From positions 1 through 34,709 of the forward strand of contig JAADHV010000111.1 of the NCBI GenBank assembly GCA_013151635.1: a DNA stretch of 34,709 nt. The letters run 5' to 3'. The stretch's first letter is position 1; every line of letters begins with the position of its first letter. The notes under the pieces were generated by a model, which did no database searches, was not told the DNA's origin, and saw only the letters and a program-made list of their open reading frames with translations. The position numbers and the translations under genes were made by a program. Positions 11,256 to 33,667 of the stretch are shown here, piece after piece. Origin of the DNA: Deltaproteobacteria bacterium. Lineage in GTDB: Bacteria; Desulfobacterota; Desulfobacteria; Desulfobacterales; Desulfobacteraceae.

Positions 11256-11348
11256 ATGAAAGATGACACGGAACCGTTGCAAAGTCACGACATCTTAATT
11301 AAGCCATTGAACAGTGGAATTATCATCCCGCCTGACAAGCGATTGTAA
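11256..11348 (+). CDS. 30-residue ORF with a strong ribosome binding site
   Basis: ATG at 11256 with AAGGAG at 11244-11249 and a 6-base spacer, closed by TAA at 11346-11348. The product begins MKDDTEPLQSHDILIKPLN and is charged with no membrane segment. I do not recognise it. It lies between the intron remnant and the sigma-54 promoter, so it may be a small protein, a leader peptide or the front end of a gene truncated by rearrangement. The good ribosome binding site is the main support. Confidence 0.3.
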   Translation: MKDDTEPLQSHDILIKPLNSGIIIPPDKRL

Positions 11349-11388: not shown

Positions 11389-11404
11389 TGGCACAGCGAT
11401 TGCT
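11389..11404 (+). promoter_or_regulatory. Sigma-54 (RpoN) promoter of the hdrA-like operon
   Basis: TGGCAC-AGCGA-TTGCT fits the -24/-12 consensus TGGCACRNNNNTTGCW at every fixed position. GG is at 11390-11391 and GC at 11402-11403. Predicted transcript start is near 11414, giving a leader of about 78 bases before the ATG at 11493. It requires an AAA+ activator, and one is encoded downstream in the same gene run (15320-16663). Confidence 0.85.
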
Positions 11405-11460
11405 GTTAATCTTGCGGGAAAAGGAATGCAATCTTGCAAACTTTTAAATTAAGAAAGGAG

Positions 11461-11488
11461 CCTGAATTCCGGATTTCAGGTTTTTTTT
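11461..11488 (+). terminator. Intrinsic-terminator-like hairpin in the hdrA-like leader
   Basis: CCTGAA (11461-11466) pairs with TTCAGG (11475-11480) around an 8-base loop, followed at once by eight T residues (11481-11488). It sits inside the predicted leader, between the only good Shine-Dalgarno (AAGGAG, 11455-11460) and the ATG at 11493. It may act as an attenuator, or its folding may bring the Shine-Dalgarno close to the start codon. Confidence 0.5.
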
Positions 11489-11492
11489 AAAT

Positions 11493-14009
11493 ATGGAATC
11501 AAATGCAAAAAACAAAAGCGTTATAATCATTGGCGGGGGTGTGGCCGGCATGGCCGCAGCCGAGACTTTAAACGATAGCGGTGTCAATGTACACCTTATT
11601 GAAAAAAACGATCATCTTGGCGGGAATACTTTTTCCTGGGCATGCATGGCAACAGGCTCCTGCCGGCACTGTTCAGCCTGTTTAAGTCATGAAATGGCCG
11701 ATAAATTACACAGGATGACATGTGTTAACACACACCTGAATTCTGAAATCTTGGAAATAGATAAAAATCAAAAAAAATATACTGTCCGTTTAAAAGGGGA
11801 CCTTGATCAATCCATTGAAACTGATAAAATCATCCTGGCCACCGGATTCACACCCATAAACCCAGACGGTCTCATCGGCGAGATACACAAAAAAAATAAA
11901 TATGTCATTACCACTGTTGAACTCAACCATATTTTGAAAAATAATGCTATTGGTGAATACTTTCCTGACACAAGTTGCCCTAAAATCGGTTTTATTCAAT
12001 GTGTCGGATCAAGAAACCGTGAAAAGGGCAGAGATTATTGTTCCCAGGTATGCTGCAAGATATCCCTTCGTCACATAAACAAGTTGATGCACCTTTACCC
12101 CGGAGCAAAAATAAGCCTTTTTTATATTGATCTCCAGGTCATAGGAAAAGAGATTAGAGCCGAGTTTGACTCTCTTTCAGATAATGTTGATCTGATTCAG
12201 GGTGTTCCAATTGAAATTTTTAACAACAAAATGGACAAAAAACTATCGGTCATCAGAGAGGATGACGAAAGTGGAAGCCGCATTGCTGATCATTTTGACA
12301 TGATGGTGCTTTCCGTGGGGATCGCGGCCCATGAAAACACAACCGGCCTCATGGGCAAATTAAAGATATCTTCTGATCAATGGGGATTTATTAATGATAA
12401 AAGCCTTCCTGCCAGAAAAGATATCTACGTTGCAGGATGTGCCGCAGGCCCTGTTGATATCCTCACAGCAAAACAGCAGGGAATTAACTGTGCAAAAAAA
12501 ATAATTCAATGCTTTAATCCTGAGAAACCAGGCCGGGCAAAGGGATTAATTGCCATTATCGGGGATGGTAATGAAGCCAGGAAAACCGCATCTGCTGCAT
12601 TAAACGAGGGATATGACGTATGGATGTTCGGCCTTTCCAATAAAAAAGAAAGCCCAAAAAAAGGTATTCATTATATCCATGATACTAAACTCATCTCAGT
12701 CAAGGGTGCGGCAGGGAACTTTGCTGTTCTCTACAAAAATTCACAAAAACTAAAGCAGGAAAATTTTACTGCAATTATTGTAGCAGAACCTGTAAAAACA
12801 TCACCTGCCGGACAAAAAACAAACCTTACCCCTGATGTATTATATTCTCTGGAAGACTTTTCAAATATCTTAGAAAAAAATCCTGAAGATATCCCTGCTG
12901 CCATTGTTTTCTGGCTGGATTATTCAAAGCCTGAGTTCAAAACCTTTTCAAGAAAGGCACTGGTGCATGCCATAGAGCTTGCCAAAGCGGGAAAACAAGT
13001 TTCTTTTATCATGAATAAAATGCTGGTGCATGGACTTTCAGGGCAGAAACTATACGACAAGGCACGGAAACTGGGAATAAAATTTCTAAGAACAGCCTCA
13101 CCAGGAGATGTAAGCGTTAAAAAAGAAAACGGAAAAATTTTATTTGACCTTAAAGAAAAAATATTGAAAAATTTAATAATTTCTTTTGAAAGCGACTGGC
13201 TTATCATACCGGAACATATTTCACCGAGTAAGCAAAACCCAATGATTGCAGCACTTTTAAAAGAAAATATTGATGTTGAAGGGTATCTGCAGTCTGCCAA
13301 TGTAAGGCACAGGTTAACCAATAGCCCCAGGAAGGGAATATTTTATACAGGATCATGCCACGACGAAACAGACGACCAGGATCAAAACATAGAAATTGAA
13401 ATAATCCTGTCATCAATAAATGACATTGCCTGCAAAAAAACAATGGGTTTATCCTGTGGCATTGAAATTAATACAAAAAAATGCAGAAAATGCCTGACCT
13501 GCTTTAGAGCCTGCCCCCATGGAGCTATAGTCTTAAATGCCGACATGAAGCCTTATATTGTCCCTGAAGCATGTTTCTCATGCGGGTTATGCCTGTCCAG
13601 CTGCCCTGCTCTGGCCATTGAATCCAAAGAATTTTCCGACGAGTCATATATAAACTCAGCCTCAGAAGACAAGGTCATAATATTTGCATGTGAACGCTCA
13701 GGCGCTCTTGCGGCAGGACCAATTGAAAAAAACTTGAGGGTCAATATTCAAAAGGTACCATGCGTGTGCAGGATCAGCAAAAATATCCTGATGAAAACTT
13801 TGGAAAAGGGTGCAGAAAAAATAATACTGGCCGGCTGTCATACTGACAACTGCCGTTCCCTAAAGGGAAGTCAAACAGCCCAGACTAGGGCAAAGATCTT
13901 AGGCAGGCTTCCGGGAATCAATGATTCAAATATTATCTTTTATCCGGTTGCAGCCAATGAATCAAAAAAATTCGAACAATTCCTGGCCCAAGAAGTTTTA
14001 TCAAAATAG
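11493..14009 (+). CDS. HdrA/QmoB-like iron-sulfur flavoprotein with ferredoxin and MvhD-like C-terminal domains
   Basis: An 838-residue relative of heterodisulfide reductase subunit A and QmoB, proteins that bifurcate or relay electrons in methanogens and sulfate reducers. Domains: FAD Rossmann motif IIIGGGVAGMAAAETL (about 11-26); cysteine cluster Cys51, Cys57, Cys60, Cys63 (SCRHCSACL); the HdrA hallmark FIQCVGSRNREKGRDYCSQV with the following CC pair (about 165-190). Residues about 350-630 look like a second, degenerate HdrA-type module (IAIIGDGNEARKTASAAL ... TNSPRKGIFYTGSC). Next come two [4Fe-4S] motifs, CRKCLTCFRACP and CFSCGLCLSSCP (about 660-710), and an MvhD/FlpD-like domain (728-838) with VPCVCR and GCHTDNCRSLKG. 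The first MvhD CxxC appears as CERS, so one usual [2Fe-2S] ligand is missing. It is followed after 21 bases by the HdrD-like gene. The electron donor and acceptor are unknown. Confidence 0.9.
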   Translation: MESNAKNKSVIIIGGGVAGMAAAETLNDSGVNVHLIEKNDHLGGNTFSWACMATGSCRHCSACLSHEMADKLHRMTCVNTHLNSEILEIDKNQKKYTVRLKGDLDQSIETDKIILATGFTPINPDGLIGEIHKKNKYVITTVELNHILKNNAIGEYFPDTSCPKIGFIQCVGSRNREKGRDYCSQVCCKISLRHINKLMHLYPGAKISLFYIDLQVIGKEIRAEFDSLSDNVDLIQGVPIEIFNNKMDKKLSVIREDDESGSRIADHFDMMVLSVGIAAHENTTGLMGKLKISSDQWGFINDKSLPARKDIYVAGCAAGPVDILTAKQQGINCAKKIIQCFNPEKPGRAKGLIAIIGDGNEARKTASAALNEGYDVWMFGLSNKKESPKKGIHYIHDTKLISVKGAAGNFAVLYKNSQKLKQENFTAIIVAEPVKTSPAGQKTNLTPDVLYSLEDFSNILEKNPEDIPAAIVFWLDYSKPEFKTFSRKALVHAIELAKAGKQVSFIMNKMLVHGLSGQKLYDKARKLGIKFLRTASPGDVSVKKENGKILFDLKEKILKNLIISFESDWLIIPEHISPSKQNPMIAALLKENIDVEGYLQSANVRHRLTNSPRKGIFYTGSCHDETDDQDQNIEIEIILSSINDIACKKTMGLSCGIEINTKKCRKCLTCFRACPHGAIVLNADMKPYIVPEACFSCGLCLSSCPALAIESKEFSDESYINSASEDKVIIFACERSGALAAGPIEKNLRVNIQKVPCVCRISKNILMKTLEKGAEKIILAGCHTDNCRSLKGSQTAQTRAKILGRLPGINDSNIIFYPVAANESKKFEQFLAQEVLSK

Positions 14010-14030
14010 GACAATAAAGGATATAATATA

Positions 14031-15260
14031 ATGGAAAATGTTAAATTAAATACAGGTTCATATCTTATTGAACAGCTTAATACATCCCAAAAAAATGACA
14101 ATGTATTCGAATGCCTTTCATGCGGGGCATGCAGTTCAAGCTGCTCCTGGTTTGAAGGGGAAGGAGGCCCTGTTCCAAGGCAGATTATTAAAATGGCTTC
14201 CCTTGGCCTTGATGATTTATTAATAGAAAGCGGTATGCTGTGGGATTGCCTTTTGTGCAACAGATGCACACAAAATTGCCCCATGGGGATAACCATGGGA
14301 AATGTAGTCAGAAAAGGGCGGTCTCATCCCAAAGCAGGCAAACTTATTTCAAAGGACATCCAGAACGGTATCAAAACAAGGCTGACCACAGGGGATGTAA
14401 ACGGACTTACCAGGGAAGAATTTATCGAGACCATTGAATGGATGTCAGAAGAATTTGCCGATGAAACAGGAGACCCTGATGCCACAATCCCTTATGACCA
14501 AAAAGGTGCTGAATTTTTATACCTGCCCAACCCAAGAGAGCTTGGCATCAACCTTCTGCACCTTACCGCCATGGCAAAACTTTTCTGGATGTCGGATCAA
14601 TCCTGGACCATGTCCAGCAGGCATACTGATGTCACAAATTGGGGATACTTTGTAAGTGACGATGAAATTGCCCGGAAAATGGCCCTGATGGTAATTGAAC
14701 CTGCTGAAAAACTCGGTATTAAGACCCTGGTGCTGTCGGAATGCGGCCATGGATATCACGTTCTAAAAGTCCTGGCTGAAAAACTGATCGGGAGAAAACC
14801 TGAATTTGAAGTATTAAGCATGCCTGAATTTGTTTTAAAATTTGTCAAACAGGGGAAGATCAAGCTTGACAAAAATGCACACCCTTATCCTGTTGCTTAT
14901 CACGATCCTTGTAATCTTGGCAGGAAATCAGGCCTTTATGATGCCCCAAGAGAACTTTTGGCCCTTTGCTGCAAAGAGGTTGTTGAACTGGTTCCCAATC
15001 GTGAAAATGCAATCTGCTGCGGTGGAGGCGGAGGTATGCTCCAGGACAGCAAAAGTAAACCCAAGAGGATGATAACCGGTAAAGCCAAGGCAGACCAGAT
15101 TATTGCTTCCGGGGTTCAAAACCTTGCCGCCCCTTGTCTTTCCTGCCACCGCCAGCTCGGGGAAATTTCAAACCACTTCAAACTCGGGGTAAAAGTGTAC
15201 ACTGTTGCTGAAATAGCTTCAAGCTCTCTTATATTACCAGGAGATAAAAAAATGGTTTAA
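14031..15260 (+). CDS. HdrD-like (HdrC-HdrB fusion) iron-sulfur protein
   Basis: A 409-residue protein with an HdrC-type ferredoxin domain, Cys28/31/34/38 (CLSCGACSSSC) and Cys73/76/79/83 (CLLCNRCTQNCP), each able to hold a [4Fe-4S] cluster. An HdrB-type CCG region follows: one complete CCG copy, DPCNLGR (about 293), CCGGGGGM (about 329) and APCLSCHRQL (about 369), and an earlier, degenerate copy at LSECGHGYHVLK. CCG domains bind the non-cubane [4Fe-4S] clusters that reduce disulfides in HdrB and occur in DsrK, HmcF and TmcB. No membrane helix is present, so it is cytosolic. It is directly downstream of the HdrA/QmoB-like gene (21-base gap) and is almost certainly its partner. A disulfide or persulfide substrate is plausible but unproven. 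Confidence 0.9.
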   Translation: MENVKLNTGSYLIEQLNTSQKNDNVFECLSCGACSSSCSWFEGEGGPVPRQIIKMASLGLDDLLIESGMLWDCLLCNRCTQNCPMGITMGNVVRKGRSHPKAGKLISKDIQNGIKTRLTTGDVNGLTREEFIETIEWMSEEFADETGDPDATIPYDQKGAEFLYLPNPRELGINLLHLTAMAKLFWMSDQSWTMSSRHTDVTNWGYFVSDDEIARKMALMVIEPAEKLGIKTLVLSECGHGYHVLKVLAEKLIGRKPEFEVLSMPEFVLKFVKQGKIKLDKNAHPYPVAYHDPCNLGRKSGLYDAPRELLALCCKEVVELVPNRENAICCGGGGGMLQDSKSKPKRMITGKAKADQIIASGVQNLAAPCLSCHRQLGEISNHFKLGVKVYTVAEIASSSLILPGDKKMV

Positions 15261-15297
15261 ACCGGTATTTAATTTAAAATAATCCCTAAAGGTTAAT

Positions 15298-15330
15298 ATG
15301 AATTCAATTCGTTTTTATTATGGCAAATAA
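15298..15330 (+). CDS. 10-codon minicistron overlapping the start of the sigma-54 activator gene
   Basis: AAAGG (15288-15292), a 5-base spacer and ATG at 15298 encode MNSIRFYYGK, with the stop at 15328-15330. The reading frame runs across the ATG at 15320 of the activator gene, which has no Shine-Dalgarno of its own. An in-frame TGA at 15299-15301 rules out an upstream start for the activator. It is a candidate translational-coupling leader. Confidence 0.35.
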   Translation: MNSIRFYYGK

Positions 15331-16663
15331 AAAAAGATTCAAACCCCTGACCGGCGAAACCACCAAGGTAATCCTTGAATGTATCTCAGACGGGGTTTTT
15401 ACAATAGACTACAATTGGGAGATCACCTCCTTTAACCGCGCCGCAGAGGAAATCACGGGAATCTCCCGCAAAGATGCAGTTGGCCGGCACTGCTGGGAGG
15501 TCTTCCGGTCCAATATGTGTGAAAAAGATTGTGCCCTTAAAAAAACAATGGAAGAAGGCAGGCCCTTTGTCAGTACATCAGGATATATTATTAACAGTGA
15601 AAAAAAACGTATTTCCATCACGGTTTCGACATCTCTTCTCATTGATGAAACCGGGGATGTCATAGGGGGCGTTGAAACATTCAGGGACCATTCCCTTGTT
15701 GAAGAACTCCGAAAAGAACTTGCCACGCGATTCAAGGTTGAAGATATCATCAGTAACAGTGATGCCATGAAAAATATCTTTGATATCCTTCCGCAGGTAT
15801 CAGAAAGTGATTCATCTGTTTTGATAGAAGGAGAGACAGGGACAGGAAAAGAACTGCTTGCCCGTGCCATCCATAATTTAAGCCCCAGAAAAGACAAACC
15901 CTTTATTGCGATTAATTGTGGCGCACTTCCTGACACTCTGCTTGAATCCGAATTGTTTGGATATAAAAAGGGTGCATTTACCAGTGCCATCAAAGATAAA
16001 CCCGGCCGGTTTGCCCTTGCCGACAGCGGCACTATCTTTCTTGATGAAATAGGAGATACAAGCCCCGCCTTCCAGGTCAGCCTTCTCCGGGTCCTCCAGG
16101 AGCATGAATTCACTCCTCTTGGTGGTTTGAAAAAAGAAAAAACAAACATCAGGATTATTGCTGCCACCAATAAAAATCTTACAGAACTTGTATCTCAGCA
16201 TCAATTCAGGCAGGACCTCTATTACCGTATCAATGTAATCAGGCTTTCCCTGCCGCCATTAAGGCATAGGATGGAAGACATTCCTCTTCTTGTGGACCGG
16301 TTTATCCAAAAAATGAATATGCGCCAGGGGAAATTTATCCAGGGAATTGAAAAAAAAGTCCTCCAGGCATTTATGTCCCACGAATTTCCAGGCAATATCA
16401 GGGAACTTGAAAATATCATTGAACATGCCTTTGTCCTCTGCTCCGAGGGCTATATACAACTGAATCATTTACCAGGTTTTTTATTATTGCCTCCTGATGC
16501 CAGTGACAAAAAAGATAATGATCCTGTTAAATCAGCACAAATCAAACTCATTACCGATGCCCTGACACGAAATAATTATAACCGCAGCGCTGCAGCCAAA
16601 GATCTGGGAATCCATAAAAGCACTCTTTTCAGAAGGATTAAAAAGCTTGGAATGACATTGTAA
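15320..16663 (+). CDS. PAS-domain sigma-54-dependent transcriptional activator
   Basis: A 447-residue enhancer-binding protein. A PAS domain (about 14-125) carries Cys58, Cys67 and Cys71 (HCWEVFRSNMCEKDC), a cysteine pattern seen in several deltaproteobacterial regulators and suited to redox or metal sensing (inference). The AAA+ domain has Walker A GETGTGKE at about 171, GAFTSA at 218-223 (the sigma-54 contact loop, normally GAFTGA), Walker B TIFLDEIGD and the R-finger region FRQDLYYRINV. The C-terminus (about 405-447) is a Fis-type helix-turn-helix, NRSAAAKDLGIHKSTLFRRI. There is no receiver domain, so the PAS domain probably senses directly. It follows the hdrD-like gene and lies between two sigma-54 promoters, which are its likely targets. 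Confidence 0.94.
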   Translation: MANKKRFKPLTGETTKVILECISDGVFTIDYNWEITSFNRAAEEITGISRKDAVGRHCWEVFRSNMCEKDCALKKTMEEGRPFVSTSGYIINSEKKRISITVSTSLLIDETGDVIGGVETFRDHSLVEELRKELATRFKVEDIISNSDAMKNIFDILPQVSESDSSVLIEGETGTGKELLARAIHNLSPRKDKPFIAINCGALPDTLLESELFGYKKGAFTSAIKDKPGRFALADSGTIFLDEIGDTSPAFQVSLLRVLQEHEFTPLGGLKKEKTNIRIIAATNKNLTELVSQHQFRQDLYYRINVIRLSLPPLRHRMEDIPLLVDRFIQKMNMRQGKFIQGIEKKVLQAFMSHEFPGNIRELENIIEHAFVLCSEGYIQLNHLPGFLLLPPDASDKKDNDPVKSAQIKLITDALTRNNYNRSAAAKDLGIHKSTLFRRIKKLGMTL

Positions 16664-16769
16664 AGGCTGTTTTTTTTAAATGCAACATTTGCGCTCAAAA
16701 CAGTCTTGGTTTTGCGACCTTTGTTATTGCCCCAAATGTATCCCACCACATCATGCTCCCACCCTAACC

Positions 16770-16798
16770 AATTGATATTAAATCAAATATGATCAATT
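16770..16798. promoter_or_regulatory. Inverted repeat upstream of the second sigma-54 promoter, possible activator site
   Basis: AATTGAT (16770-16776) and ATCAATT (16792-16798) are perfect arms 15 bases apart, with an extra ATCAA at 16782-16786. The centre lies about 60 bases before the predicted transcript start. This is closer than most enhancer sites but compatible with binding by the adjacent regulator. I did not find the same motif ahead of the hdrA-like promoter. Confidence 0.3.
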
Positions 16799-16817
16799 AA
16801 AATAAAAATCAATATTT

Positions 16818-16833
16818 AGGCACATGCCTTGCA
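16818..16833 (+). promoter_or_regulatory. Sigma-54 promoter of the NifX-like gene
   Basis: AGGCAC-ATGCC-TTGCA matches TGGCACRNNNNTTGCW except for the first base. The invariant GG (16819-16820) and GC (16831-16832) are present. Predicted start is near 16843, 25 bases before the TTG start codon at 16868. Confidence 0.75.
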
Positions 16834-16867
16834 ACCCTTTTAAAGACAAAACAAATGGAGGGTAATA

Positions 16868-17233
16868 TTGAACTTAGCCATAACAATCTGGGGCAACCGG
16901 GTTTCACCTGTATTTGACGCTGCGAGTACACTTCTTGTCGCACACATTGAAAACCGGATGATAATAGATAAAAGCTATACGGCCTTTAACCCTGAAAGGA
17001 CTTCCGATCTTATAAAACTGCTGAAAAAAAAGCAGGCCTCTGTTCTGATATGCGGTGCTATTTCCACAAAGCCTGCTGAGCTAATCGTTGAAAGCGATAT
17101 TAAACTCATCTCTTTTGTAACCGGGAATGCCATTAATTTTCTAGAAAACTTTGCCCGCAAACAGATTATTGAAAAAGCATTTATGATGCCCGGATGCAGC
17201 ACACAATACTGCTGGCGGCAAAAATCAAGATAA
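16868..17233 (+). CDS. NifX/NifB-type (dinitrogenase iron-molybdenum cofactor) family small protein
   Basis: A 121-residue single-domain protein of the FeMo-cofactor-binding family (NifX, NafY, NifB C-terminus and many small stand-alone relatives). The opening segment, AITIWGNRVSPVFDAASTLLV, is the clearest signature. The middle, SVLICGAISTKPAELI, matches the strand-loop region of the fold. The C-terminus has a CxxxxC pair in PGCSTQYCW that could bind metal or act in redox chemistry. Stand-alone members are common in anaerobes without nitrogenase and are not understood; no nif gene lies nearby. The start is TTG at 16868, preceded by TGGAGGG. It is transcribed from its own sigma-54 promoter, so it probably shares the regulator with the hdr-like genes. 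Confidence 0.82.
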   Translation: MNLAITIWGNRVSPVFDAASTLLVAHIENRMIIDKSYTAFNPERTSDLIKLLKKKQASVLICGAISTKPAELIVESDIKLISFVTGNAINFLENFARKQIIEKAFMMPGCSTQYCWRQKSR

Positions 17234-17453
17234 TATCATCTTCAAGAGGATAATTTTTTTTAGAGAATTAACTTGAAACTACACAAAAAATCAAACAATT
17301 TTTTCTTTACACCATAGCCGGTAATTGATATCAAGGCTATCCATGCTTTTTTAAAGTGCTGTATTGTCACAACAAGGTTAATCAGGATTGTTATTGACGC
17401 TGACAAACTGCTGTTACTTTTTTTAAAATTTTTTATTTCATCCTGGTAATGCA

Positions 17454-19373
17454 ATGATTCGAAAACCCACATATGAAGAGTTGGAGCTTAAGATAGAAAC
17501 CCTTAAAAAGGAAGCCAAAAAAGCCAGATCCAAAAATCAGGCCACCCGGACTGCAAGCAAAAATTATAAACGCTTTTTAAAATTTTTACCCTATCCTGTT
17601 ATTGTCAGGGATACAAAGGGGCTTGTCACTTATCTTAACCCGGCTTTTACCAGAACATTCGGCTGGACTTTAAGGGAATTGAAAGGCCGTGAAGGCAAGC
17701 AATATGTACCCGAGTCTCGAAAAGATGAAGTTACCGACAAAATCAAAACCATGGCCATCAAAAAAAATATTCTCCACCTGAACACCCGGAGACTTACAAA
17801 AGACGGCGATGTTTTGGATGTAATGCTCCGGGTCGGCGTGAACCGGGATCATAATAATAATCCTGAAGGAGTGATAATTGTCCTCAGGGATGTAACAATG
17901 GAAAAACGCATTAAACGAAACCGTGGCGCCATGAACCGGATCAGCCAGGCTTTGCCCAGGTATCCGGATTTAAGAAAACTGCTTTTCTATGTAAATACTG
18001 AAATTAAAGAACTGCTTGGAACCGAAAGTGCCAACACAATCCTGCTTGATGATGCCCAGAAGGAATTCTATTTTTTAAGCGCTGTCCATGATGACCCGTC
18101 CACCCGGGAACGTATTGAAAAAGCGAGATTCCCAGTTGATGAACTACTTTCCGGCCAGGTGATAAAGACCGGCAGGCCCCTGATTGCCAACAAGCTTTCC
18201 AATGACTGCAACCAGTATGAATCAAGGGACCGGAAAATAGGTTATAAGGTTAAAAATGTACTATTGGTGCCTCTAAAAAATAAGGACCGGACTATTGGAA
18301 TACTGGCCGCTGATAATAAAAAAACAGGAGATTTTGATAATACTGATCTTGAGACCTTGAATACCATTGCCACAACAGTCGCACTTTCAATTGAAAATGC
18401 ACGGGTTTCAAGGGAATTGAGAAAAGCTTATGAAGAGTTAAAAAGCCTTAACCGTGCAAAAGATAAAATGATCAGCCATTTGTCCCATGAGCTGAAAACT
18501 CCGGTGGCCATACTTCTTAGCTCTTTTAAAATCCTTTCAAAAAAATTGGTTGATCTCCCTGAAAAAACCTGGCGGCCAACTTTTGAAAGAATACAAAGAA
18601 ATTTGAACCGCATTATCGGGATTGAAGATGAAGTCTATGATATTGTTGAAAAAAAGGAATTCTTTCACCATAAAATTTTTTCCCTTATTCTGGAACAATG
18701 CCAGGATGGACTTGAAACCCTTATTGCCGAAGAAACAGGAGAAAAAGAGGTAATAGCCAAAGTAAGGCAAAAGATCGAAAATATTTTCAATACAAGGGAC
18801 CTTGCAGTCCAAGACATTTTTTTAAACCAGTTTGTTGAAAAAAGGATCAAAGCCCTTGAACCTGATATGGCCAATAGGGATGTCTCCATTATCACCCGGC
18901 TCAAATCTTCTTCCCCGATCCGGCTTCCGGCTGAGCCTTTAAGAAAGACAGTGGATGGACTCATTCGAAATGCCATTGAAAGCACACCGGATGGCGGGAA
19001 GATAGAAATTCTTGTTCACCAAAAAGGCAAGGGCATGCAATTTGTGGTAAAAGACCATGGAACAGGGCTTACCAGGGAAGCCCAAAAAAGAATTTTTGAA
19101 GGCTTTTTCACAACACAGGAAACAATGAATTACTCATCAAAAAGGCCTTTTGATTTTAATGCAGGGGGAAAAGGAGCTGACCTTTTGCGAATGAAAATAT
19201 TTTCAGAAAGATATGATTTCAAAATTTCCATGACATCGAACCGGTGCCGGCGCATCCCGAAAAACAAGGATGTATGCCCGGGTTCAATAAAAGAGTGCAA
19301 AAAAATAAAAGGGCCTGCATGCAACGGGATGACAATTGTTACCTGCTTTTTCCCTTTTCCTGATAATAATTGA
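17454..19373 (+). CDS. Cytosolic PAS-GAF sensor histidine kinase with C-terminal cysteine cluster
   Basis: A 639-residue kinase. An N-terminal coiled segment (TYEELELKIETLKKEAKKA, about 5-30) is followed by a PAS domain (about 45-155), a GAF domain (about 165-320), HisKA with H-box SHLSHELKTPVA (His345) and a HATPase_c domain with N-box RNAIESTPDGG and G1 box KDHGTGL. The usual G2 box is replaced by NAGGKGADLLRMKIFSERY. Near the end Cys598, Cys608, Cys615 and Cys623 (motif CPGSIKEC within) are grouped, possibly a metal or redox site. No membrane helix is predicted, so the signal is probably internal. The ATG at 17454 has only a weak upstream GG. It is followed after 62 bases by the haem-motif sensor, a plausible partner. 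Confidence 0.9.
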   Translation: MIRKPTYEELELKIETLKKEAKKARSKNQATRTASKNYKRFLKFLPYPVIVRDTKGLVTYLNPAFTRTFGWTLRELKGREGKQYVPESRKDEVTDKIKTMAIKKNILHLNTRRLTKDGDVLDVMLRVGVNRDHNNNPEGVIIVLRDVTMEKRIKRNRGAMNRISQALPRYPDLRKLLFYVNTEIKELLGTESANTILLDDAQKEFYFLSAVHDDPSTRERIEKARFPVDELLSGQVIKTGRPLIANKLSNDCNQYESRDRKIGYKVKNVLLVPLKNKDRTIGILAADNKKTGDFDNTDLETLNTIATTVALSIENARVSRELRKAYEELKSLNRAKDKMISHLSHELKTPVAILLSSFKILSKKLVDLPEKTWRPTFERIQRNLNRIIGIEDEVYDIVEKKEFFHHKIFSLILEQCQDGLETLIAEETGEKEVIAKVRQKIENIFNTRDLAVQDIFLNQFVEKRIKALEPDMANRDVSIITRLKSSSPIRLPAEPLRKTVDGLIRNAIESTPDGGKIEILVHQKGKGMQFVVKDHGTGLTREAQKRIFEGFFTTQETMNYSSKRPFDFNAGGKGADLLRMKIFSERYDFKISMTSNRCRRIPKNKDVCPGSIKECKKIKGPACNGMTIVTCFFPFPDNN

Positions 19374-19435
19374 AACTTTATAGAACCTTCTTGGTTTTTA
19401 TTGTTTTTCCCTTATAAAAAGACTAAATAAAAAAT

Positions 19436-20473
19436 ATGAATAAAAATAAACTAAAAAAGAAGTTCAATCCTAACCTGTTATGGTATTATGCTCTGGGCGC
19501 GATTGCAGTATGGACATTATTTATAATACTGTCATTGCTGTGGCACCGGAAAACAATACGGTCAAGCACACTGGAGGCTGCAAGGATTGAAGCAAGGGAT
19601 GTCTTACAAAACCACGTCATCTACCGAAGCTGGAATGCATCTCATGGTGGACTTTATGCCCCTGTTACCCCTAAAACCCGGCCCAATCCATACCTTGATA
19701 TACCAGAGCGTGATATTCAAACACCATCAGGTGTGAAGCTAACTAAAATCAACCCGGCATATATGACGCGCCAGGTAATTGAACTGGCTTTGAAGAAATT
19801 TGGCTATATAGGCCATATCACCAGCCTTAAGCCTATCCGGCCTGGGAACAAACCGGATGATTGGGAAGCTCATGCACTGAAAAGCTTTGAACGGGGTAAC
19901 AATGAAGTCAGTTCCCTTGCAATAATCAACAAAAAAAAATACATGCGGTTGATAAGACCCTTAATCACTGAAAAAAAGTGCCTGAAATGCCATGCAAAGC
20001 AGGGATATAAAGAGGGCGACATCAGGGGGGGCATCAGCGTTGCCGTCCCGGTTGCCCCGCATTTTGCCATTGAAAAGGCAAATTTAAAAACCTTCAGGTT
20101 GATGTATGCTTTACTCTGGTTTGCAGGACTTGCCGGCACTGTTTTTTTCATAGCAGTTTTAAACCGTCAGATTCAAAAACGTCTAATAGCTGAGGATGAA
20201 CTGCGCCGCCGTGAAAAAATGGAAGGCGTAATTGAACTGGCCGGGGCCATATGTCATGAATTGAACCAGCCATTACAGACAATCCTGGGAAATTCAGAAA
20301 TTATAATGATGGATAATATTGACAAACAAAGCATTTTAAAGAGGGTCCGGCTGATCAGGGAGCAGGTCGACCGAATGGGAAAACTGACCGGAAAACTGAT
20401 CAAGATAGCCAGCTATGAAACAAAGGACATGCCCCAGGGCAAGGTTATAGATATTGAAAAATCATCCCGGTGA
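19436..20473 (+). CDS. Membrane sensor with haem-binding Tll0287-like (DUF3365) domain and HisKA, no ATPase domain
   Basis: A 345-residue protein with two membrane helices (about 14-36 and 222-242) enclosing a periplasmic Tll0287-like/DUF3365 domain. That domain carries a c-type haem motif CLKCH (Cys182, Cys185, His186), implying covalent haem attached outside the membrane. After a linker, the HisKA helix has AICHELNQPLQTILGNSEI with phospho-acceptor His274. The protein ends at residue 345 with no N, G1 or G2 boxes, so it cannot bind ATP for autophosphorylation. No frameshift is visible: the gene stops at 20473 and the next gene is on the other strand. Phosphorylation in trans by the kinase encoded just upstream, or loss of kinase function, are the main options. 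Likely signals are redox state or a diatomic gas (inference). Confidence 0.85.
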   Translation: MNKNKLKKKFNPNLLWYYALGAIAVWTLFIILSLLWHRKTIRSSTLEAARIEARDVLQNHVIYRSWNASHGGLYAPVTPKTRPNPYLDIPERDIQTPSGVKLTKINPAYMTRQVIELALKKFGYIGHITSLKPIRPGNKPDDWEAHALKSFERGNNEVSSLAIINKKKYMRLIRPLITEKKCLKCHAKQGYKEGDIRGGISVAVPVAPHFAIEKANLKTFRLMYALLWFAGLAGTVFFIAVLNRQIQKRLIAEDELRRREKMEGVIELAGAICHELNQPLQTILGNSEIIMMDNIDKQSILKRVRLIREQVDRMGKLTGKLIKIASYETKDMPQGKVIDIEKSSR

Positions 20474-23236: not shown

Positions 23237-24640
23237 TCAGGTCTGTTTAATCAGTTTTCCAGAAGCTAAAGACGAGGCATGTTCAGGGCTGTGAGGCCCG
23301 TCTGAAATCCCGTAAGTTCCATGGTTAATGGTTGTAAAATCAGGATATGCCTGTCCACCATGCTCTGTAGAATCAAGGCCTTCCAACTCATCTTCTTTGG
23401 AAACTCTCAATCCAATAGTAACATCCATCAATTTAAACAGGAGATAGGCCAGGGAAAATGTCCATAAAAAACAAGCCGCTATCCCTGTCAACTGGACAGT
23501 CAATATCTTAAGTGTTACGCCTCCCATATTAAAGATACCGGCGGCAAGAGTCCCCCATGCCCCACAGACACCATGTACTGAAATAGCACCTACTGGATCA
23601 TCAATTTTTATTTTATCAAAAAACAGGACAGAGAAAACTACAATTACGCCTGCTATGCCACCAATGATAATTGAACTTGCGGGCGTAACATTGGCACACC
23701 CTGCTGTAATTCCAACAAGCCCTGCCAACGCTCCATTCAGGGTCATCCCGACTTCGGGTTTTCCAAACTTAACCCAGGAAACCATCATAGCCATAATCGA
23801 ACCGGCCGCAGCGGCAAGGTTTGTGTTGACAAAAATCATGGCAATGTCCTTAGATGCAGCAGTAGTGGAGCCCGGGTTAAACCCGAACCAGCCTACCCAG
23901 AGGATAAACACCCCAAGGGCTGCCAACGGAATATTATGCCCGAGTATTGGATTGACTTTGCCTTCTTTTGTATACTTTCCAAGACGGGGACCTAACACAA
24001 TAGCCCCTGCAAGCGCTGCCCATCCTCCAACTGAATGAACAACGGTTGAGCCTGCAAAATCGATAAACCCTAAATTTTCAAGCCACCCGCCTCCATGAAA
24101 CAGGCTTCCCCATGCCCAGCTGCCGAAAACCGGATAGATCAAGGCTGAAATGACTACAGAATACAAAAGGTATCCTATAAATTTAGTCCTTTCCGCCATG
24201 GCACCGGATACAATAGTGGCGGCTGTGGCGGCAAACACCACCTGGAACATCCAGAATGCCAGTACCCACGGGTCTCCGCCAATTTTAAAATCACTTAAGA
24301 AAAATCCGGTGGTTCCAAAAAAACCGGATTTGGAAACACCAAACATAAGACCGAATCCAACTGCCCAATATACAATAGAACCCATTGCAAAATCCATCAG
24401 GTTCTTCATCATTATATTGATAGCGTTTTTAGCCCTTGTAAAACCTGTCTCGACCATTGCAAAACCTGCCTGCATAAAAAACACAAATACCGCGGCAACC
24501 AGAGTCCATACATAATCTGCGTGGGACTGTACCAAATCAATGGCAGCCCTGTTAGACGCTATCGTGGGTGGTTTGTCGCCGGCAAAGGCAATTGCTATTG
24601 AGCATATCAAATAAATTATTATTATACCGATTTTTTTCAT
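23237..24640 (-). CDS. amtB: Ammonium transporter AmtB
   Basis: A 467-residue trimeric ammonium channel of the Amt family with an N-terminal signal-like helix (1-20, MKKIGIIIIYLICSIAIAFA) and eleven core helices. Family signatures: FFMQAGFAMVETGFTRAKNA, the first pore histidine in GSTVVHSVGGWAALAGAIVLG, and the second in VGAISVHGVCGAWGTLAAGI. The C-terminal tail (SKEDELEGLDSTEHGGQAY) is the cytosolic region that PII proteins contact. It lies 20 bases downstream of glnK in the usual operon, under a sigma-54 promoter, so it is expressed under nitrogen limitation and gated by GlnK. It is terminated by the hairpin at 23175-23210. Confidence 0.97.
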   Translation of the reverse strand: MKKIGIIIIYLICSIAIAFAGDKPPTIASNRAAIDLVQSHADYVWTLVAAVFVFFMQAGFAMVETGFTRAKNAINIMMKNLMDFAMGSIVYWAVGFGLMFGVSKSGFFGTTGFFLSDFKIGGDPWVLAFWMFQVVFAATAATIVSGAMAERTKFIGYLLYSVVISALIYPVFGSWAWGSLFHGGGWLENLGFIDFAGSTVVHSVGGWAALAGAIVLGPRLGKYTKEGKVNPILGHNIPLAALGVFILWVGWFGFNPGSTTAASKDIAMIFVNTNLAAAAGSIMAMMVSWVKFGKPEVGMTLNGALAGLVGITAGCANVTPASSIIIGGIAGVIVVFSVLFFDKIKIDDPVGAISVHGVCGAWGTLAAGIFNMGGVTLKILTVQLTGIAACFLWTFSLAYLLFKLMDVTIGLRVSKEDELEGLDSTEHGGQAYPDFTTINHGTYGISDGPHSPEHASSLASGKLIKQT

Positions 24641-24660: not shown

Positions 24661-24999
<339 letters not shown>

Positions 25000-25047: not shown

Positions 25048-25063
25048 AGCAAAAGAGGTGCCA
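25048..25063 (-). promoter_or_regulatory. Sigma-54 promoter of glnK-amtB
   Basis: On the minus strand, TGGCAC-CTCTT-TTGCT matches the -24/-12 consensus except at the weakly conserved purine after TGGCAC. Predicted start is near 25037, about 37 bases before glnK. NtrC-type activation under nitrogen limitation is the established mechanism for this operon in proteobacteria. Confidence 0.85.
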
Positions 25064-28008: not shown

Positions 28009-28153
28009 AACCGAAAGACAAGAAAATATCTGGTGTTTGCCGCCGGACTGGTTATAATATTTCCGGTGGATGGAAAAGCTGCCTTAAAAACATTACAGGA
28101 TGAAAAGACTGAAAAGCTTCGCCAAAAAGGCGAACACACAGGAGATAATTAAT

Positions 28154-29266
28154 ATGAAGGAAATCAGAATTTTTCATGAAGCCATTGAAAACACATCAAA
28201 CATGGCTCGCAAAATCAAAGCCGGGCAAAAAAAAATTATCGGCCACCTTTGTTCCTATACACCGGAAGAATTGATATATGCAGCAGGGTTTCATCCCATG
28301 CGGCTGTTTTCTTCAAAATCAGATATTGTTCTTGCTGAAAAACATCTCCAGTCCTATTGCTGTTCCCCTGTAAGGGGCGTACTTGAAGACAGCCTTTCAG
28401 GCCGGCTTGATTTTCTTGACGGCACAGTGTTTCCACATACCTGTGATTCCATCCAGAGATTAAGTGACATCTGGCGCATGAACGGGAAATATGAATTCTT
28501 TGCAGATGTTATCCTGCCTGCAAAGCTGAACACAAGAAGTGCAAAGACATATATGACTGATGTGCTGACAGGATTTAAAAAAGAGCTTGAAAAAGCCTCC
28601 GGCAAAAAAATCACTGATACCAGTCTCCATGAATCCATCAAAAAATTTAACCTGATACGCGAAAACCTGTCAAAAATTTATGAACTCAACTCCCATAACC
28701 CCGGATTAATTAAAGGCGCTGATCTATATGCCATTGTGAAAGGCTCAATGGTGATGGACAAAGATGAGGTGGCAGGTCTTTTACCTGTAATTGCAGCCAA
28801 TCTTGAAAAAATAGACCCTCCTTCTGAAAAAGGCAAGCGAATCGTTATTTCAGGCTCGATCTGTGATTCACCGGGATTTTATGAAACAATTGAAGAGGCA
28901 GGCGGCCTTATTGCAGGAGATGACCTTTGCACGGGCCAGAGGTGGTTTGAAGGTATGATCCAGGAGGATGGAGATCCGATGACGGCCATTGCGTCAAGAT
29001 ATTTTGACCGCATAAACTGTCCTGCAAAGCATACCAGCCTTACATTCCGTGGTGAAAACATCGTATCCCTTGCAAGAAAAAATAATGCGAAAGGAGTCAT
29101 TTTCATGCTGCTTAAGTTTTGTGATCCCCATGCCTTTGATTATCCATACCTTAAAGAGTATCTTGATAAGGAAAAAATTAAAACCATGGCTGTTGAAATA
29201 GATGAACAGCAGCAAAGCCTCGGACAATTATCCACCCGGATCGAAACTTTTATCCATATGATATAA
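28154..29266 (+). CDS. 2-hydroxyacyl-CoA dehydratase / benzoyl-CoA reductase subunit, BcrC/HgdB type
   Basis: A 370-residue iron-sulfur subunit of the family that includes 2-hydroxyglutaryl-CoA dehydratase and class I benzoyl-CoA reductase. The family opening GHLCSYTPEELIYAAGFHPM (30-49) is clear. Cysteines able to hold a [4Fe-4S] cluster are Cys69/Cys70 (SYCCSPVRG), Cys97 (PHTCDS) and Cys323 (LKFCDPH). I start at ATG 28154, with AGGAG 9-10 bases upstream; an in-frame ATG at 28100 has a poorly spaced site. It is first in a three-gene operon with a BcrB-like partner (16-base gap) and an ATP-dependent activator. The two-subunit plus one-activator layout resembles dehydratases more than the four-subunit BcrCBAD reductase. 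The substrate is unknown. Confidence 0.88.
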   Translation: MKEIRIFHEAIENTSNMARKIKAGQKKIIGHLCSYTPEELIYAAGFHPMRLFSSKSDIVLAEKHLQSYCCSPVRGVLEDSLSGRLDFLDGTVFPHTCDSIQRLSDIWRMNGKYEFFADVILPAKLNTRSAKTYMTDVLTGFKKELEKASGKKITDTSLHESIKKFNLIRENLSKIYELNSHNPGLIKGADLYAIVKGSMVMDKDEVAGLLPVIAANLEKIDPPSEKGKRIVISGSICDSPGFYETIEEAGGLIAGDDLCTGQRWFEGMIQEDGDPMTAIASRYFDRINCPAKHTSLTFRGENIVSLARKNNAKGVIFMLLKFCDPHAFDYPYLKEYLDKEKIKTMAVEIDEQQQSLGQLSTRIETFIHMI

Positions 29267-29282
29267 AAAAAGGATTTGCAAT

Positions 29283-30506
29283 ATGCAAGGCAAGCCCCAA
29301 AAAAAAATAAAAGCCGCAAAAAAAATGCGGGATTTAATGACCACCTATTACCTTGAGGCCATGAGCGCCGGGCAAAACAATAAACAGATCGCCTGGATCA
29401 CTTCCGGAGGCCCTGTAGAACCATTAGTTGCCATGGACATTATCCCTGTTTATCCTGAAAATCACGGGGCCATGATAGGATCATCCAAAATGGGGGAAGA
29501 CCTTTGCATCAAGGCCGAAGACATGGGATACAGTTCCGATCTTTGTTCCTATGCAAGAGCAGATATCGCATGCTCCGTTGTCAAAGGCGGCCCCATAGGC
29601 GGATTACCCAGGCCTGACATGCTGATCTGCTGCAATAATATTTGCGGCACTGTTTTAAAATGGTATGAAGTCCAGGCAAGATTTTACAAGGTACCTTTGT
29701 TTATCTTAGACACCCCTTTCTGCCATACAGGATACTCTCCTGAGGCAGCAGTATACGTCCGGTCCCAGATTGATGAATACATTGGTTTTCTTGAAAAGGT
29801 CACAAAGAAAAAATTTGATTACGATAAAATGGCCCTTGCAGGAAAACTTTCCCTTGAGGGCCAGCTTCTCTGGCAAAAAGTCCTAAATACTACCGCCCAC
29901 AGGCCATCTCCCATGTCTGCCTTTGATGCTTTCTTTTTTCTTGCCCTGATTGTAACATTGCGGGGTACTCAAATCCCGGTCGATTTTTACAGGGAACTTA
30001 TAGATGAAATGGAACAGCGAATAAGGGATGGCATAAGTATAATTCCAGATGAACAATACAGGCTTTTATGGGACAACCTGCCTTTGTGGTATCAGCTGAA
30101 ATGGCTTTCCTCTGAATTTTCAGAACATAATGCCTGCCTTGTTGCAGATACTTATACCTCGGCGTGGTGCGGCGCCATAAAATATACGGATGAAAATAAT
30201 TTTTTAGATTCCATGGCCCAGGCCTATACCAGGATCTATCTTAATATCGGTGTTGACCAGATGGCAGACCAGGTGCTTGAAATGATAAAATTTTATAATG
30301 TCGATGGTTTTGTCATGCATTCAAACCGGTCCTGCAAGCCTTACTCTTTCGGGCAGATGGATATCATGAAAATTGTAAGAGAAAGGGCTGAGGTTCCGGT
30401 CCTGATGATAGAGGCAGACATGGTTGACCCAAGGAATTTTTCTAAATCCCAGGTGGAAACCCGTATTGATGCATTCATGGAAATCGTAAAACAAAGGAAC
30501 AAATAA
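29283..30506 (+). CDS. 2-hydroxyacyl-CoA dehydratase / benzoyl-CoA reductase subunit, BcrB/HgdA type
   Basis: A 407-residue partner subunit. Segments typical of BcrB/BadE/BzdO are IAWITSGGPVEPLVAMDIIP, VYPENHGAMIGSSKMGEDLC, YSSDLCSYARADIA and LICCNNICGTVLKWYEV. Candidate cluster cysteines are Cys88, Cys116/117, Cys121 and the late NRSCKPYS (about 353). Together with the upstream subunit it should form a heterodimer with two [4Fe-4S] clusters that carry out a one-electron, ketyl-radical type reduction or dehydration of a CoA thioester. Resemblance by eye is to benzoyl-CoA reductase subunit B, but the matching BcrA/BcrD pair is replaced by a single activator. Soluble, cytosolic, with no frameshift. 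Confidence 0.87.
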   Translation: MQGKPQKKIKAAKKMRDLMTTYYLEAMSAGQNNKQIAWITSGGPVEPLVAMDIIPVYPENHGAMIGSSKMGEDLCIKAEDMGYSSDLCSYARADIACSVVKGGPIGGLPRPDMLICCNNICGTVLKWYEVQARFYKVPLFILDTPFCHTGYSPEAAVYVRSQIDEYIGFLEKVTKKKFDYDKMALAGKLSLEGQLLWQKVLNTTAHRPSPMSAFDAFFFLALIVTLRGTQIPVDFYRELIDEMEQRIRDGISIIPDEQYRLLWDNLPLWYQLKWLSSEFSEHNACLVADTYTSAWCGAIKYTDENNFLDSMAQAYTRIYLNIGVDQMADQVLEMIKFYNVDGFVMHSNRSCKPYSFGQMDIMKIVRERAEVPVLMIEADMVDPRNFSKSQVETRIDAFMEIVKQRNK

Positions 30507-30507
30507 C

Positions 30508-30531
30508 ATGAACGGTGCAACAGCCATATGA
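30508..30531 (+). CDS. 7-codon minicistron overlapping the activator gene start
   Basis: AAAGGA (30493-30498) precedes ATG 30508, which encodes MNGATAI and stops at TGA 30529-30531. That TGA overlaps the activator start codon as ATGA (30528-30531). The activator ATG itself has no evident Shine-Dalgarno, and an in-frame TAA at 30504-30506 rules out an upstream start. This suggests translational coupling. Confidence 0.35.
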   Translation: MNGATAI

Positions 30532-31295
30532 TTTATGCAGGCATAGACATAGGCTCCATCACAGCCAAGGCAGCTTTTATAAAAGGTAATAAGCTTCTTG
30601 GAACCCGGGTCATTCCCTCGGGGTATAACCCCTTAAATGCAGGGATCAAAGTATTTAAGGGCCTTTTAAAAAAAACAAAGGTTTTAAAATCAGACATTAC
30701 TGCCATTGTTTCCACAGGCTATGGCCGTGCCAGTGTTGATTTTGCAGATAAGGCCATGACCGAAATCATCTGCCATGGTGCTGGTGCTTTTTTCATGAAC
30801 CCTGAAATTCGAGGAATTATTGATGTTGGCGGCCAGGACAGCAAAGCCATTCTCCTAGATAGAAAAGGACATGTCGACAACTTTGCCATGAATGACAAAT
30901 GTGCGGCAGGCACAGGGAGATTTTTTGAAGTCATGGCCAATGCGCTTGGCCTTAAATTAAATCAATTGGGAGACTTCAGCCTTAAAGCAGACAAGCCTTC
31001 AAAAATCAGCAGTATCTGCACAGTATTTGCCGAGTCAGAAGTTATTTCCATGATTGCCGGGCAGGAAAAAAGAGAAAATATCATTGCAGGCATTCATGAA
31101 TCAGCAGCCGCACGTATCAGCAGCCTTTCATCCAAAATTGGCATTAAAGAACCTGTGATGATGACAGGGGGTGTGGCCAAAAACAAAGGATTTTTAAAGG
31201 CTCTTGAAAACCGCCTTGGTTTTGAGCTTATTATGGGGAATTTACCCCAGGAAAATGGTGCCATCGGTGCTGCCGTACTTGCGTCAAGATTGTAA
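30528..31295 (+). CDS. ATP-dependent dehydratase/reductase activator, HgdC/BcrA-BcrD (BadF) family
   Basis: A 255-residue ASKHA-fold ATPase that injects one electron at low potential into its partner enzyme while hydrolysing ATP. The ATP-binding loops are GIDIGSITAKAAFI (5-18) and IIDVGGQDSKAILLD (97-111), with TGGVAKNKGFLKALE near the C-terminus. The two cysteines that bridge the homodimer's single [4Fe-4S] cluster are Cys125 in NDKCAAGTGRF and Cys164 in SSICTVFAESEV, almost the same numbers as Cys127/Cys166 in the Acidaminococcus HgdC protein. Third gene of the operon; it probably acts as a homodimer on the two upstream subunits. Its translation seems coupled to a minicistron. Confidence 0.93.
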   Translation: MIYAGIDIGSITAKAAFIKGNKLLGTRVIPSGYNPLNAGIKVFKGLLKKTKVLKSDITAIVSTGYGRASVDFADKAMTEIICHGAGAFFMNPEIRGIIDVGGQDSKAILLDRKGHVDNFAMNDKCAAGTGRFFEVMANALGLKLNQLGDFSLKADKPSKISSICTVFAESEVISMIAGQEKRENIIAGIHESAAARISSLSSKIGIKEPVMMTGGVAKNKGFLKALENRLGFELIMGNLPQENGAIGAAVLASRL

Positions 31296-32059: not shown

Positions 32060-32870
32060 AATAAAACCCTTTTTTGCTAATTAAGTAAAAAATTCAATCG
32101 TGATAACTTAAGATCGCGCTTGACTTAAAAACTATCCGGAAAAAGTCATTGATACAATCCTTGTTTATGTCCTTTACCATATCCGGGCCAGGGAAGCAAA
32201 AGTTCCTTTCCATTACAGTCTTGGTTGACGAGTTAAGTGTCAAACCATAAAAAAAATCATTAAACAATAATTTTTTCATATAAATCAGGTTGCAGCTTTA
32301 AAACCGTTGATGAATAAATGATCGCATATTTGCAGCCATGCAAAGCCAATAAGCTGCCTTTCAAATCATAAGCATCTAATTTTATGACTATTTTAAAAAA
32401 AACGAACCAATATATTTTTTTGGCATGTGTTATGCTCTTTCTATTTCTGACTTTGATTTTTAAAATAACAGTTACCCCCAGCATCGGCATGGCAATGAAG
32501 CTGTCTGAAGTTAAACCTGAAAAAATATATTTAAGTTCCTGCCTGGCCAATGCCGTGCCAGGATGCCCTGCCACAAGGCTTGATAATATGGATCCTTGGA
32601 AATGATAGTACCAGCGCCATGGGAACCTGTAACAGAACCGGATGAACTGGTACCACTATGGAAAATCCTTCACCTGACCGGAGTTGACTGGACTTATGGA
32701 AGCCACGGATGGGGAAACAAGAAATTGGAATCCTTCAACAGAAGTAATATTAAAAAAATTCACAAATATAGAACAGGCCAGCAGCAACATAAAAAATGAT
32801 GGAAACTGTAAAGAATATCCTATATGGTACAAATGGATGCAAACAGGTATAATCACTTTAGAACTGTCAT
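32060..32870. other. Gene-poor stretch of 811 bases with possible decayed ORFs
   Basis: No convincing gene. The best candidate is an ORF at 32384-32605 (+, 73 codons) with one hydrophobic helix (YIFLACVMLFLFLTLIFKI), but it has no ribosome binding site. Two overlapping short ORFs at 32596-32799 and 32684-32878 in other frames share Trp/Tyr-rich stretches and could be pieces of one frameshifted gene. GTACCAG/CTGGTAC arms occur near 32608-32654. A sigma-54-like TGGCAT...ATGCT near 32420 has two mismatches. Confidence 0.4.
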
Positions 32871-33578: not shown

Positions 33579-33667
33579 CTTGTCACAAACCTGTTTTCAG
33601 TTCCACCAATGTAATAGAGCCCTTTAAGGGCACTATACACATAAAATATATTTGGAGGAGCTTGAAA

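Follow-up and report, generated by a model that had tools for sequence, protein, structure and literature searches.

We propose that a sigma-54 regulon of the ORP type (orange protein, DVU2106-like) took over an HdrA-HdrD electron-carrier pair in the 34,709-nucleotide stretch analysed here, referred to as the window. We assign this reading, which draws on gene content, promoter and enhancer sequences, their spacing, synteny and phylogeny, a probability of about 70%. The ORP-type regulon is known already; what appears to be new is the joining of hdrA and hdrD (hdrAD) to it in one HdrD clade. The genes and promoters concerned are the following.

11389..11403, plus strand: sigma-54 promoter of hdrA, an exact match to TGGCA-N6-TTGC
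11493..14009, plus strand: HdrA-like FAD/Fe-S/FlpD protein of 838 aa (FAD, two Fer4 and FlpD/MvhD domains)
14031..15260, plus strand: HdrD-like protein of 409 aa (dicluster ferredoxin and one CCG domain)
15320..16663, plus strand: one-component PAS-AAA-HTH_8 sigma-54 activator of 447 aa (domain matches; GAFTSA loop)
16818..16832, plus strand: sigma-54 promoter of the NifX-like gene, AGGCACATGCCTTGC, with one mismatch to consensus
16868..17233, plus strand: NifX-like protein (Nitro_FeMo-Co) of 121 aa with a TTG start (domain match)
17454..19373, plus strand: PAS-GAF-HisKA-HATPase kinase (domain matches; cysteine-rich C-terminal motif)
19436..20473, plus strand: Tll0287-like c-haem (CxxCH) membrane sensor (HisKA match)

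The six genes named in the initial annotation are real, all being intact open frames. HdrA and HdrD are Hdr-type carriers in the broad sense, the former by its FAD, Fe-S and FlpD features and the latter by its dicluster and CCG cysteines, with 15 cysteines of HdrD invariant in seven orthologs. Domains in common with HdrA2/HdrABC, QmoAB, DsrMK, TmcB and HmcF are FAD, ferredoxin and FlpD, together with dicluster ferredoxin and CCG, but the present proteins form a soluble-looking two-gene pair, and both fell below the cut-offs of all NCBIfam models for these systems (HdrA2, 276 against 1100; TmcB, 196 against 735; HmcF, 180 against 750; DsrK, 170 against 400). The next best HdrD-like match within the same genome is 30-31% identical. 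HdrA-HdrD is a conserved gene pair among relatives, and a constant metabolic partner was rejected because the neighbours differ between loci. Rfam gave no match upstream of hdrA, and an RNA element or intron there was also rejected.

The likeness of the activator to DVU2106 of D. vulgaris is drawn from the description of that system, namely its loop, site layout and gene content. DVU2106 has a non-standard GAFTxA loop, tabulated as GAFTDA (PMC4641369), and the window protein, also a one-component sigma-54 activator, carries the equally non-standard GAFTSA. The published account places palindromic sites at -131 and -88, upstream of sigma-54 promoters, and reports the D. vulgaris activator gene to be sigma-70 driven. 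Here, a PAS-AAA-HTH sigma-54 activator likewise lies beside a NifX-like gene, putative palindromic activator sites occur upstream of the sigma-54 promoters, and MinD-like ATPases with ferredoxin motifs are found under the same predicted control in trans, on contig C44. Palindromic sites, NifX-like proteins and two MinD-like Fe-S ATPases are thus shared with the ORP system of D. vulgaris Hildenborough. The arrangement differs from that system in that the operons are divided over two contigs, hdrA and hdrD come ahead of the activator gene, which itself appears to lie inside a sigma-54 operon rather than under sigma-70, and the kinase and haem sensor adjoin. The window NifX-like protein is not a member of the MrpORP family by its model (30.8 against a cut-off of 450). 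Of the 31 loci among L201-L240 that bear an activator, 24 have nifX downstream of it and on its strand, and 17 of the 24 relatives with both genes have MinD-like genes in cis.

Both sigma-54 promoters of the initial annotation were recovered. The one before hdrA is an exact consensus at 11389, one of two such sites in the window (the other at 25049, minus strand). Matches with up to one mismatch were more numerous in the window than expected (27 against 14.4 +/- 4.1, with 0/100 shuffles reaching 27), so that a lone site of this kind means little; the case for the nifX promoter is its conservation rather than its single-site match. A sigma-54-like site precedes nifX in 21/21 aligned relatives, with scores of 12.1 to 14.1 (L220 and L210 weakest) under a custom weighting devised for the present analysis.

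An enhancer motif, AGTCGCA-N4-TGCGACT, was learned from 21 relatives, excluding the window; the training set omitted L213, L217, L224 and L227, in which nifX does not follow closely on the activator, as well as loci without nifX on the stretch. The motif located these elements in the window.

11275..11292, plus strand: enhancer-like site before hdrA, CGTTGCAAAGTCACGACA, score 9.6, 114 bp upstream of the sigma-54 site
11424..11441, plus strand: start-proximal enhancer-like element near hdrA, score 8.6
16702..16719, plus strand: enhancer-like site before nifX, AGTCTTGGTTTTGCGACC, score 10.3, 116 bp upstream of the sigma-54 site

The two sites upstream of the promoters are weak, with 2 and 3 mismatches in 12 arm positions and scores that about 2% of shuffles reach (38/2000 for hdrA alone and 35/2000 for nifX); the hdrA sigma-54/enhancer pair was reached in 4/2000. 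Genome-wide there is one perfect enhancer copy; it is on C44, a contig other than the window's, 114 bp ahead of a third sigma-54 promoter, and this promoter precedes an orp1-like operon, REC-MinD-MinD-NifX-NifX, whose MinD-like ATPases carry the Fe-S (ferredoxin) motifs. The occurrence of the held-out motif at both window promoters, at a spacing (114 and 116 bp) like that on C44, supports the earlier suggestion that one activator would serve both. Allowing up to one mismatch, RGTYGCANNNNTGCRACY occurs once in the 4.2-Mb genome (control 0). With a looser 16-mer, 10 genomic sites compare with 8 for the control, and when the RGTYGCANNNNTGCRACY type of search is run on relatives, several of them yield fewer hits than their control (e.g., 3 against 19 in G237). 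A strict enhancer-plus-promoter pattern gave seven matches in 86 genomes (control 0), four of them before REC-MinD. The stretch 16770-16798, put forward in the initial annotation for footprinting of the activator, was rejected as an activator site with a score below zero under the learned motif; it lies between enhancer and promoter, and its edge is overlapped by an IHF-like sequence (9/9 consensus positions; 16765-16777, minus strand).

The combination of enhancer and promoter before hdrA was sought in 40 upstream regions from 51 loci, the 11 without upstream sequence being dropped (L019, L021, L022, L026, L028, L031, L032, L038, L054, L059, and L060) and eight distant loci (L064-L067 and L069-L072) standing outside the count. 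It was present in three regions, those of the window, L017 and L018, and in 0/37 others, and hdrAD was therefore rejected as a general target of the activator. L041 has an enhancer-like site before hdrA without a promoter. Other hdrD-like genes of the genome were rejected as regulon members, the seven read with flanks (L002-L008) having no enhancer plus sigma-54 site upstream. It could be argued that the neighbours met by chance, hdrAD having an unrelated sigma-54 promoter with another activator while this activator runs only nifX and the orp1-like operon, as might be suggested by the weakness of the window hdrA site and by the 50 orthologous hdrAD loci, most of which lack this activator alongside. 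We consider this unlikely, given the strong enhancer-like sites at matching spacing before hdrA in L017 (19.2 and 16.2) and L018 (22.4), a pattern spanning the whole HdrD clade (window, L017, L018, L019 and the L381 remnant; 100/98), and decayed copies both in L381 and near the end of the window. In L018 hdrAD has its promoter, yet the activator is absent from the same contig. The decayed copy in the window comprises three elements.

32288..32337, plus strand: enhancer-like doublet, scores 7.8 and 12.2
32421..32435, plus strand: degraded sigma-54-like site, TGGCATGTGTTATGC (sequence match)
32498..32736, plus strand: two HdrD-like remnant pieces (51% over 37 and 71% over 38 residues)

From its sequence, the doublet probably belongs to a decayed second promoter. 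The HdrD-like remnant resembles the second HdrD of L017. In L381 the end of hdrD is retained just before the activator, most of hdrAD having been lost, and its promoter region has no good sigma-54 site. These remnants at 32288-32736 and in L381, with the location of the orp1-like operon on another contig, would also suit an ORP locus split by rearrangement and decaying, in which hdrAD and nifX are functionless leftovers on their way out; the intact frames of all six window genes and the invariant cysteines of HdrD make this very improbable.

Relatives carry comparable elements ahead of the activator gene, which supports self-regulation as claimed in the initial annotation, and hdrAD thus probably lies within an autoregulatory operon. 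A start-proximal-type element precedes the activator gene in 16/19 relatives scanned, and elements like 11424..11441, possibly a negative autoregulatory site, occur in L017 and L018. Immediately ahead of the activator, a clear sigma-54 site was found at the window's distance in 4 of the 19, and such a site also occurs in L374 and L375; at the threshold used it was absent in the remainder of the 19.

The order activator-nifX-kinase recurs in 16/30 close loci, with the haem sensor behind the kinase in three (L362, L374, and L375), and we dropped the view that the two sensory genes are unrelated passengers. Like Tll0287-like/DUF3365 c-haem sensors, the window protein has a Tll0287 domain with CxxCH plus HisKA; unlike them, it stops after HisKA, as do three fully read relatives, and no HATPase domain was matched, leaving a DHp-only tail. 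These recurring orders, together with a small cytochrome c7-like protein encoded between nifX and the kinase gene in two loci (L347 and L350), would fit a single six-gene signalling unit whose kinase and haem sensor act directly on the PAS activator to switch it. Such a unit is quite unlikely, since the activator has no receiver domain match, which makes its direct phosphorylation by the kinase improbable, and all six genes occur together in none of the fetched loci. Moreover, G192 (L228) keeps the kinase and its EamA neighbour although neither an activator nor a NifX protein was matched there at the cut-offs applied, and 7/30 close loci have the activator and neither kinase nor MinD genes. 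The 50 hdrAD loci gave no kinase match, and for the haem sensor two weak matches to its HisKA part (L046 and L050). Co-occurrence holds for activator, nifX and kinase, and in three loci for the CxxCH sensor, not for the set of six. Nor is the proposal of an indivisible, undescribed system supported, as the activator and its NifX-like partner match the ORP-type regulon already known, and a single small clade has hdrAD attached to it. Probably, the kinase and DHp-only haem sensor instead form an associated sensory branch that works via a different receiver.

Under the preferred takeover of hdrAD by the ORP-type regulon, the PAS activator would bind sites resembling AGTCGCA-N4-TGCGACT that lie some 114 bp ahead of three sigma-54 promoters, driving expression of a presumably co-transcribed hdrA-hdrD-activator operon and of nifX in the window, and of REC-MinD-MinD-NifX-NifX in trans on C44. 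The circuit would be self-regulated because the activator lies in the first operon, and the start-proximal element may damp it. The likely signal is redox state, sensed via PAS cysteines 58, 67 and 71, a triad present in 70/70 activators. HdrA-HdrD would shuttle electrons, with a soluble donor on one side and, on the other, a disulfide or Fe-S partner required while ORP metal-cluster proteins are being made, and the kinase and haem sensor would add a branch, perhaps via the orphan REC of the C44 operon.

In published work, ORP proteins are proposed to contribute to cell division and to the maturation of Fe-S proteins. A further-reaching reading, which we hold to be rather unlikely, is that ORP is an electron-dependent metal-cluster assembly machine with HdrA-HdrD as its dedicated reductase here and the kinase/haem-sensor branch feeding the orphan REC. 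If so, a redox signal through the PAS cysteine triad would call up reductase, NifX-like carriers and loading ATPases together, and the c-haem DHp-only sensor and cysteine-rich kinase would form a split branch to an orphan REC belonging to that regulon. Having this kind of regulator govern an Hdr-like carrier, in the neighbourhood of haem and redox sensors, opens a role in redox or cluster assembly to direct testing, and living relatives would preserve intact, rearranged and decayed stages in the capture of a metabolic gene pair by a regulatory circuit.

Domain and family matches bore out the positions given in the initial annotation for all six genes: hdrA and hdrD (together hdrAD), a PAS sigma-54 activator, a NifX-like gene (nifX), a PAS-GAF kinase and a CxxCH haem sensor. 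The sigma-54 promoter proposed at 11389 before hdrA matches the consensus exactly, and the second one, before nifX, lies at 16818-16832 with one mismatch. The sole other exact sigma-54 site in the window (25049-25063, minus strand) precedes a P-II gene and an ammonium transporter, the expected nitrogen-control arrangement. At 28100-31295, two proteins of the HGD-D family and, behind them, a BcrAD/BadFG ATPase are predicted to form a set resembling 2-hydroxyacyl-CoA dehydratase or benzoyl-CoA reductase.

A motif for the activator's putative enhancer was trained on an alignment of 21 relatives (L017 and 20 others) with nifX close behind the activator. All 21 have a sigma-54-like site ahead of nifX, weakest in L220 (12.1) and L210 (12.4; sigma-54 scores on our own scale), and upstream of it the palindrome AGTCGCA-N4-TGCGACT (42 sites, 21/21 relatives), a count that is circular because the same sites trained the motif. 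The window was held out of training, and its five best matches include sites before both hdrA and nifX; scored with this motif, the activator footprint initially placed at 16770-16798 is not the enhancer.

Enhancer matches (five best, whole window scanned) and nitrogen-control genes
32320: enhancer match, score 12.2, top-scoring in the whole window
16702: enhancer match, score 10.3, before nifX
14997: enhancer match, score 10.1, inside hdrD
11275: enhancer match, score 9.6, before hdrA
11424: enhancer match, score 8.6, after the hdrA promoter
24661-24999, minus strand: P-II (GlnK-like) gene
23237-24640, minus strand: ammonium transporter

Single enhancer sites as good as those before hdrA and nifX were reached in 38/2000 and 35/2000 shuffles, and the pair of enhancer and sigma-54 site in 4/2000 shuffles of the hdrA region. 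The top-scoring match forms a doublet with 32288, upstream of a degraded sigma-54 site (32421) that is followed by two pieces resembling L017's second HdrD-like protein, one at 51% over 37 residues and the other at 71% over 38; the region 32288-32736 is a putative decayed copy comprising enhancer doublet, promoter and HdrD-like pieces. Directly after the remnant, 32871-34516 holds an ECF-like protein with sigma-70 regions 2/4 and an alpha/beta hydrolase that overlaps its end. HdrD-like genes with one in-frame TGA occur in L017 (7075-8397) and on two other contigs of the window's genome (C107 and C18; L004, L005). The TGA stands before GH in a conserved E-C/TGA-G-H motif, and selenocysteine is possible at the first CCG position.

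Among 50 orthologous hdrAD loci, 48 have hdrA then hdrD, the contigs of the remaining two (L031, L060) starting just before or inside hdrD. The activator lies directly behind hdrD in L019 and about 6 kb downstream in L017. Three hdrA upstream regions, those of the window, L017 and L018, have an enhancer with a sigma-54 site, against 0/37 other regions examined; 11 loci lacking upstream sequence were left out. The former three, L019 and a remnant in L381 (filling only 16% of columns) form one clade (100/98) in the HdrD tree of 56 rows. In L381, a 65-residue C-terminal hdrD piece remains immediately upstream of the activator, with an enhancer doublet farther upstream and no good sigma-54 site. 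Across the 86 family genomes, 42 have an HdrD ortholog (E up to 1e-100) and 68 the activator (E up to 1e-170).

Within the order, activator matches occur in 127/194 genomes (E up to 1e-115) and NifX-like matches in 104/194 (E up to 1e-8), cut-offs that also admit paralogs; HdrA matches are rarer (7/194, E up to 1e-100). The activator (at least 58% identity) is present in 31 of 40 stretches fetched, with nifX downstream on the same strand in 24 and a MinD-like ATPase (at least 40% identity) behind nifX in 17 of these, three of the ATPases being only partial, owing to the end of the stretch or to their quality. This content resembles the orange-protein (ORP) operons DVU2103-2109 of D. vulgaris as published (PMC3897727, PMC6345978, PMC4641369). 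The accessible text of the D. vulgaris regulome paper (PMC4641369) gives only two orp operons as targets of the ORP activator DVU2106, and searches of open-access literature, which excludes most subscription papers, turned up no paper joining Hdr genes to the ORP activator. A second activator paralog (L367-L371; 65-67% identity), present in genomes such as G243, adjoins a further NifX-like gene, with several sigma-54 sites alongside.

In 30 close loci (activators at least 75% identical), nifX stands behind the activator in 26; the kinase follows nifX in 16, three loci have REC-MinD and seven have neither, four contigs ending too early to tell. In three of the 16 (L362, L374, L375) the haem sensor comes behind the kinase; for two of the 16 the contig stops within the kinase. 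In L347 and L350, nifX and kinase are separated by a small cytochrome c7-like protein. Of 13 full-length kinases other than the window's, 12 keep a four-cysteine motif close to the C-terminus; the exception, L375, lacks one of the cysteines. The window's haem sensor stops after HisKA, as do three relatives inspected at full length. Tll0287 c-haem sensors in L229, L230 and L231, which end at this point, have a conserved VIDI(E/D)KA tail and possibly represent a family of DHp-only haem sensors. The window's activator has no receiver-domain match; its PAS cysteines (58, 67, 71) are kept in 70/70 activators, paralogs included, and we infer that they may serve in redox sensing.

The window's own genome (4.2 Mb, 136 contigs, 95% complete) holds one occurrence of RGTYGCANNNNTGCRACY at up to one mismatch (control 0), and a looser 16-mer gave 10 sites, one mismatch-free, versus 8 in the control. 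Both indicate C44:7957, 114 bp upstream of the sigma-54 promoter TGGCACATGGCTTGC, behind which lie REC (a match under the Pfam cut-off, 23.9 versus 30.2), two MinD/Fer4 ATPases and two NifX-like genes. Enhancer-to-promoter spacing is 114 bp both here and at hdrA, and 116 bp at nifX. For the one-mismatch search of RGTYGCANNNNTGCRACY, some other family genomes give as many control hits as signal hits or more, so this pattern alone is not discriminating. A strict composite pattern gave seven matches in 86 family genomes (control 0), four ahead of REC-MinD, one ahead of a protein NifX-like by eye and two unclear; strict patterns miss the window's own weak enhancer sites.

Before the activator itself, 16 of 19 relatives scanned have a start-proximal element (-44 to -76), 12 have upstream enhancers (-121 to -244) and four (L349, L350, L361, L362) a sigma-54 site scoring 13 or more between -93 and -106. 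L360 has a further one at -198, the others of the 19 showing none of at least 13; L374 and L375 also carry a sigma-54 site, at about -108. The same scan gave -218, -104 and -69 ahead of hdrA in the window. The simplest reading is that hdrAD lies between the promoter through which the activator regulates itself and the activator gene. The activator tree has a 13-row clade (100/99) in which the window branches first; the complete loci of this clade carry nifX and kinase, and L019, L358, L381 and L017 branch elsewhere. Given this separation, the hdrAD-activator link would be either ancestral and subsequently lost, or moved.
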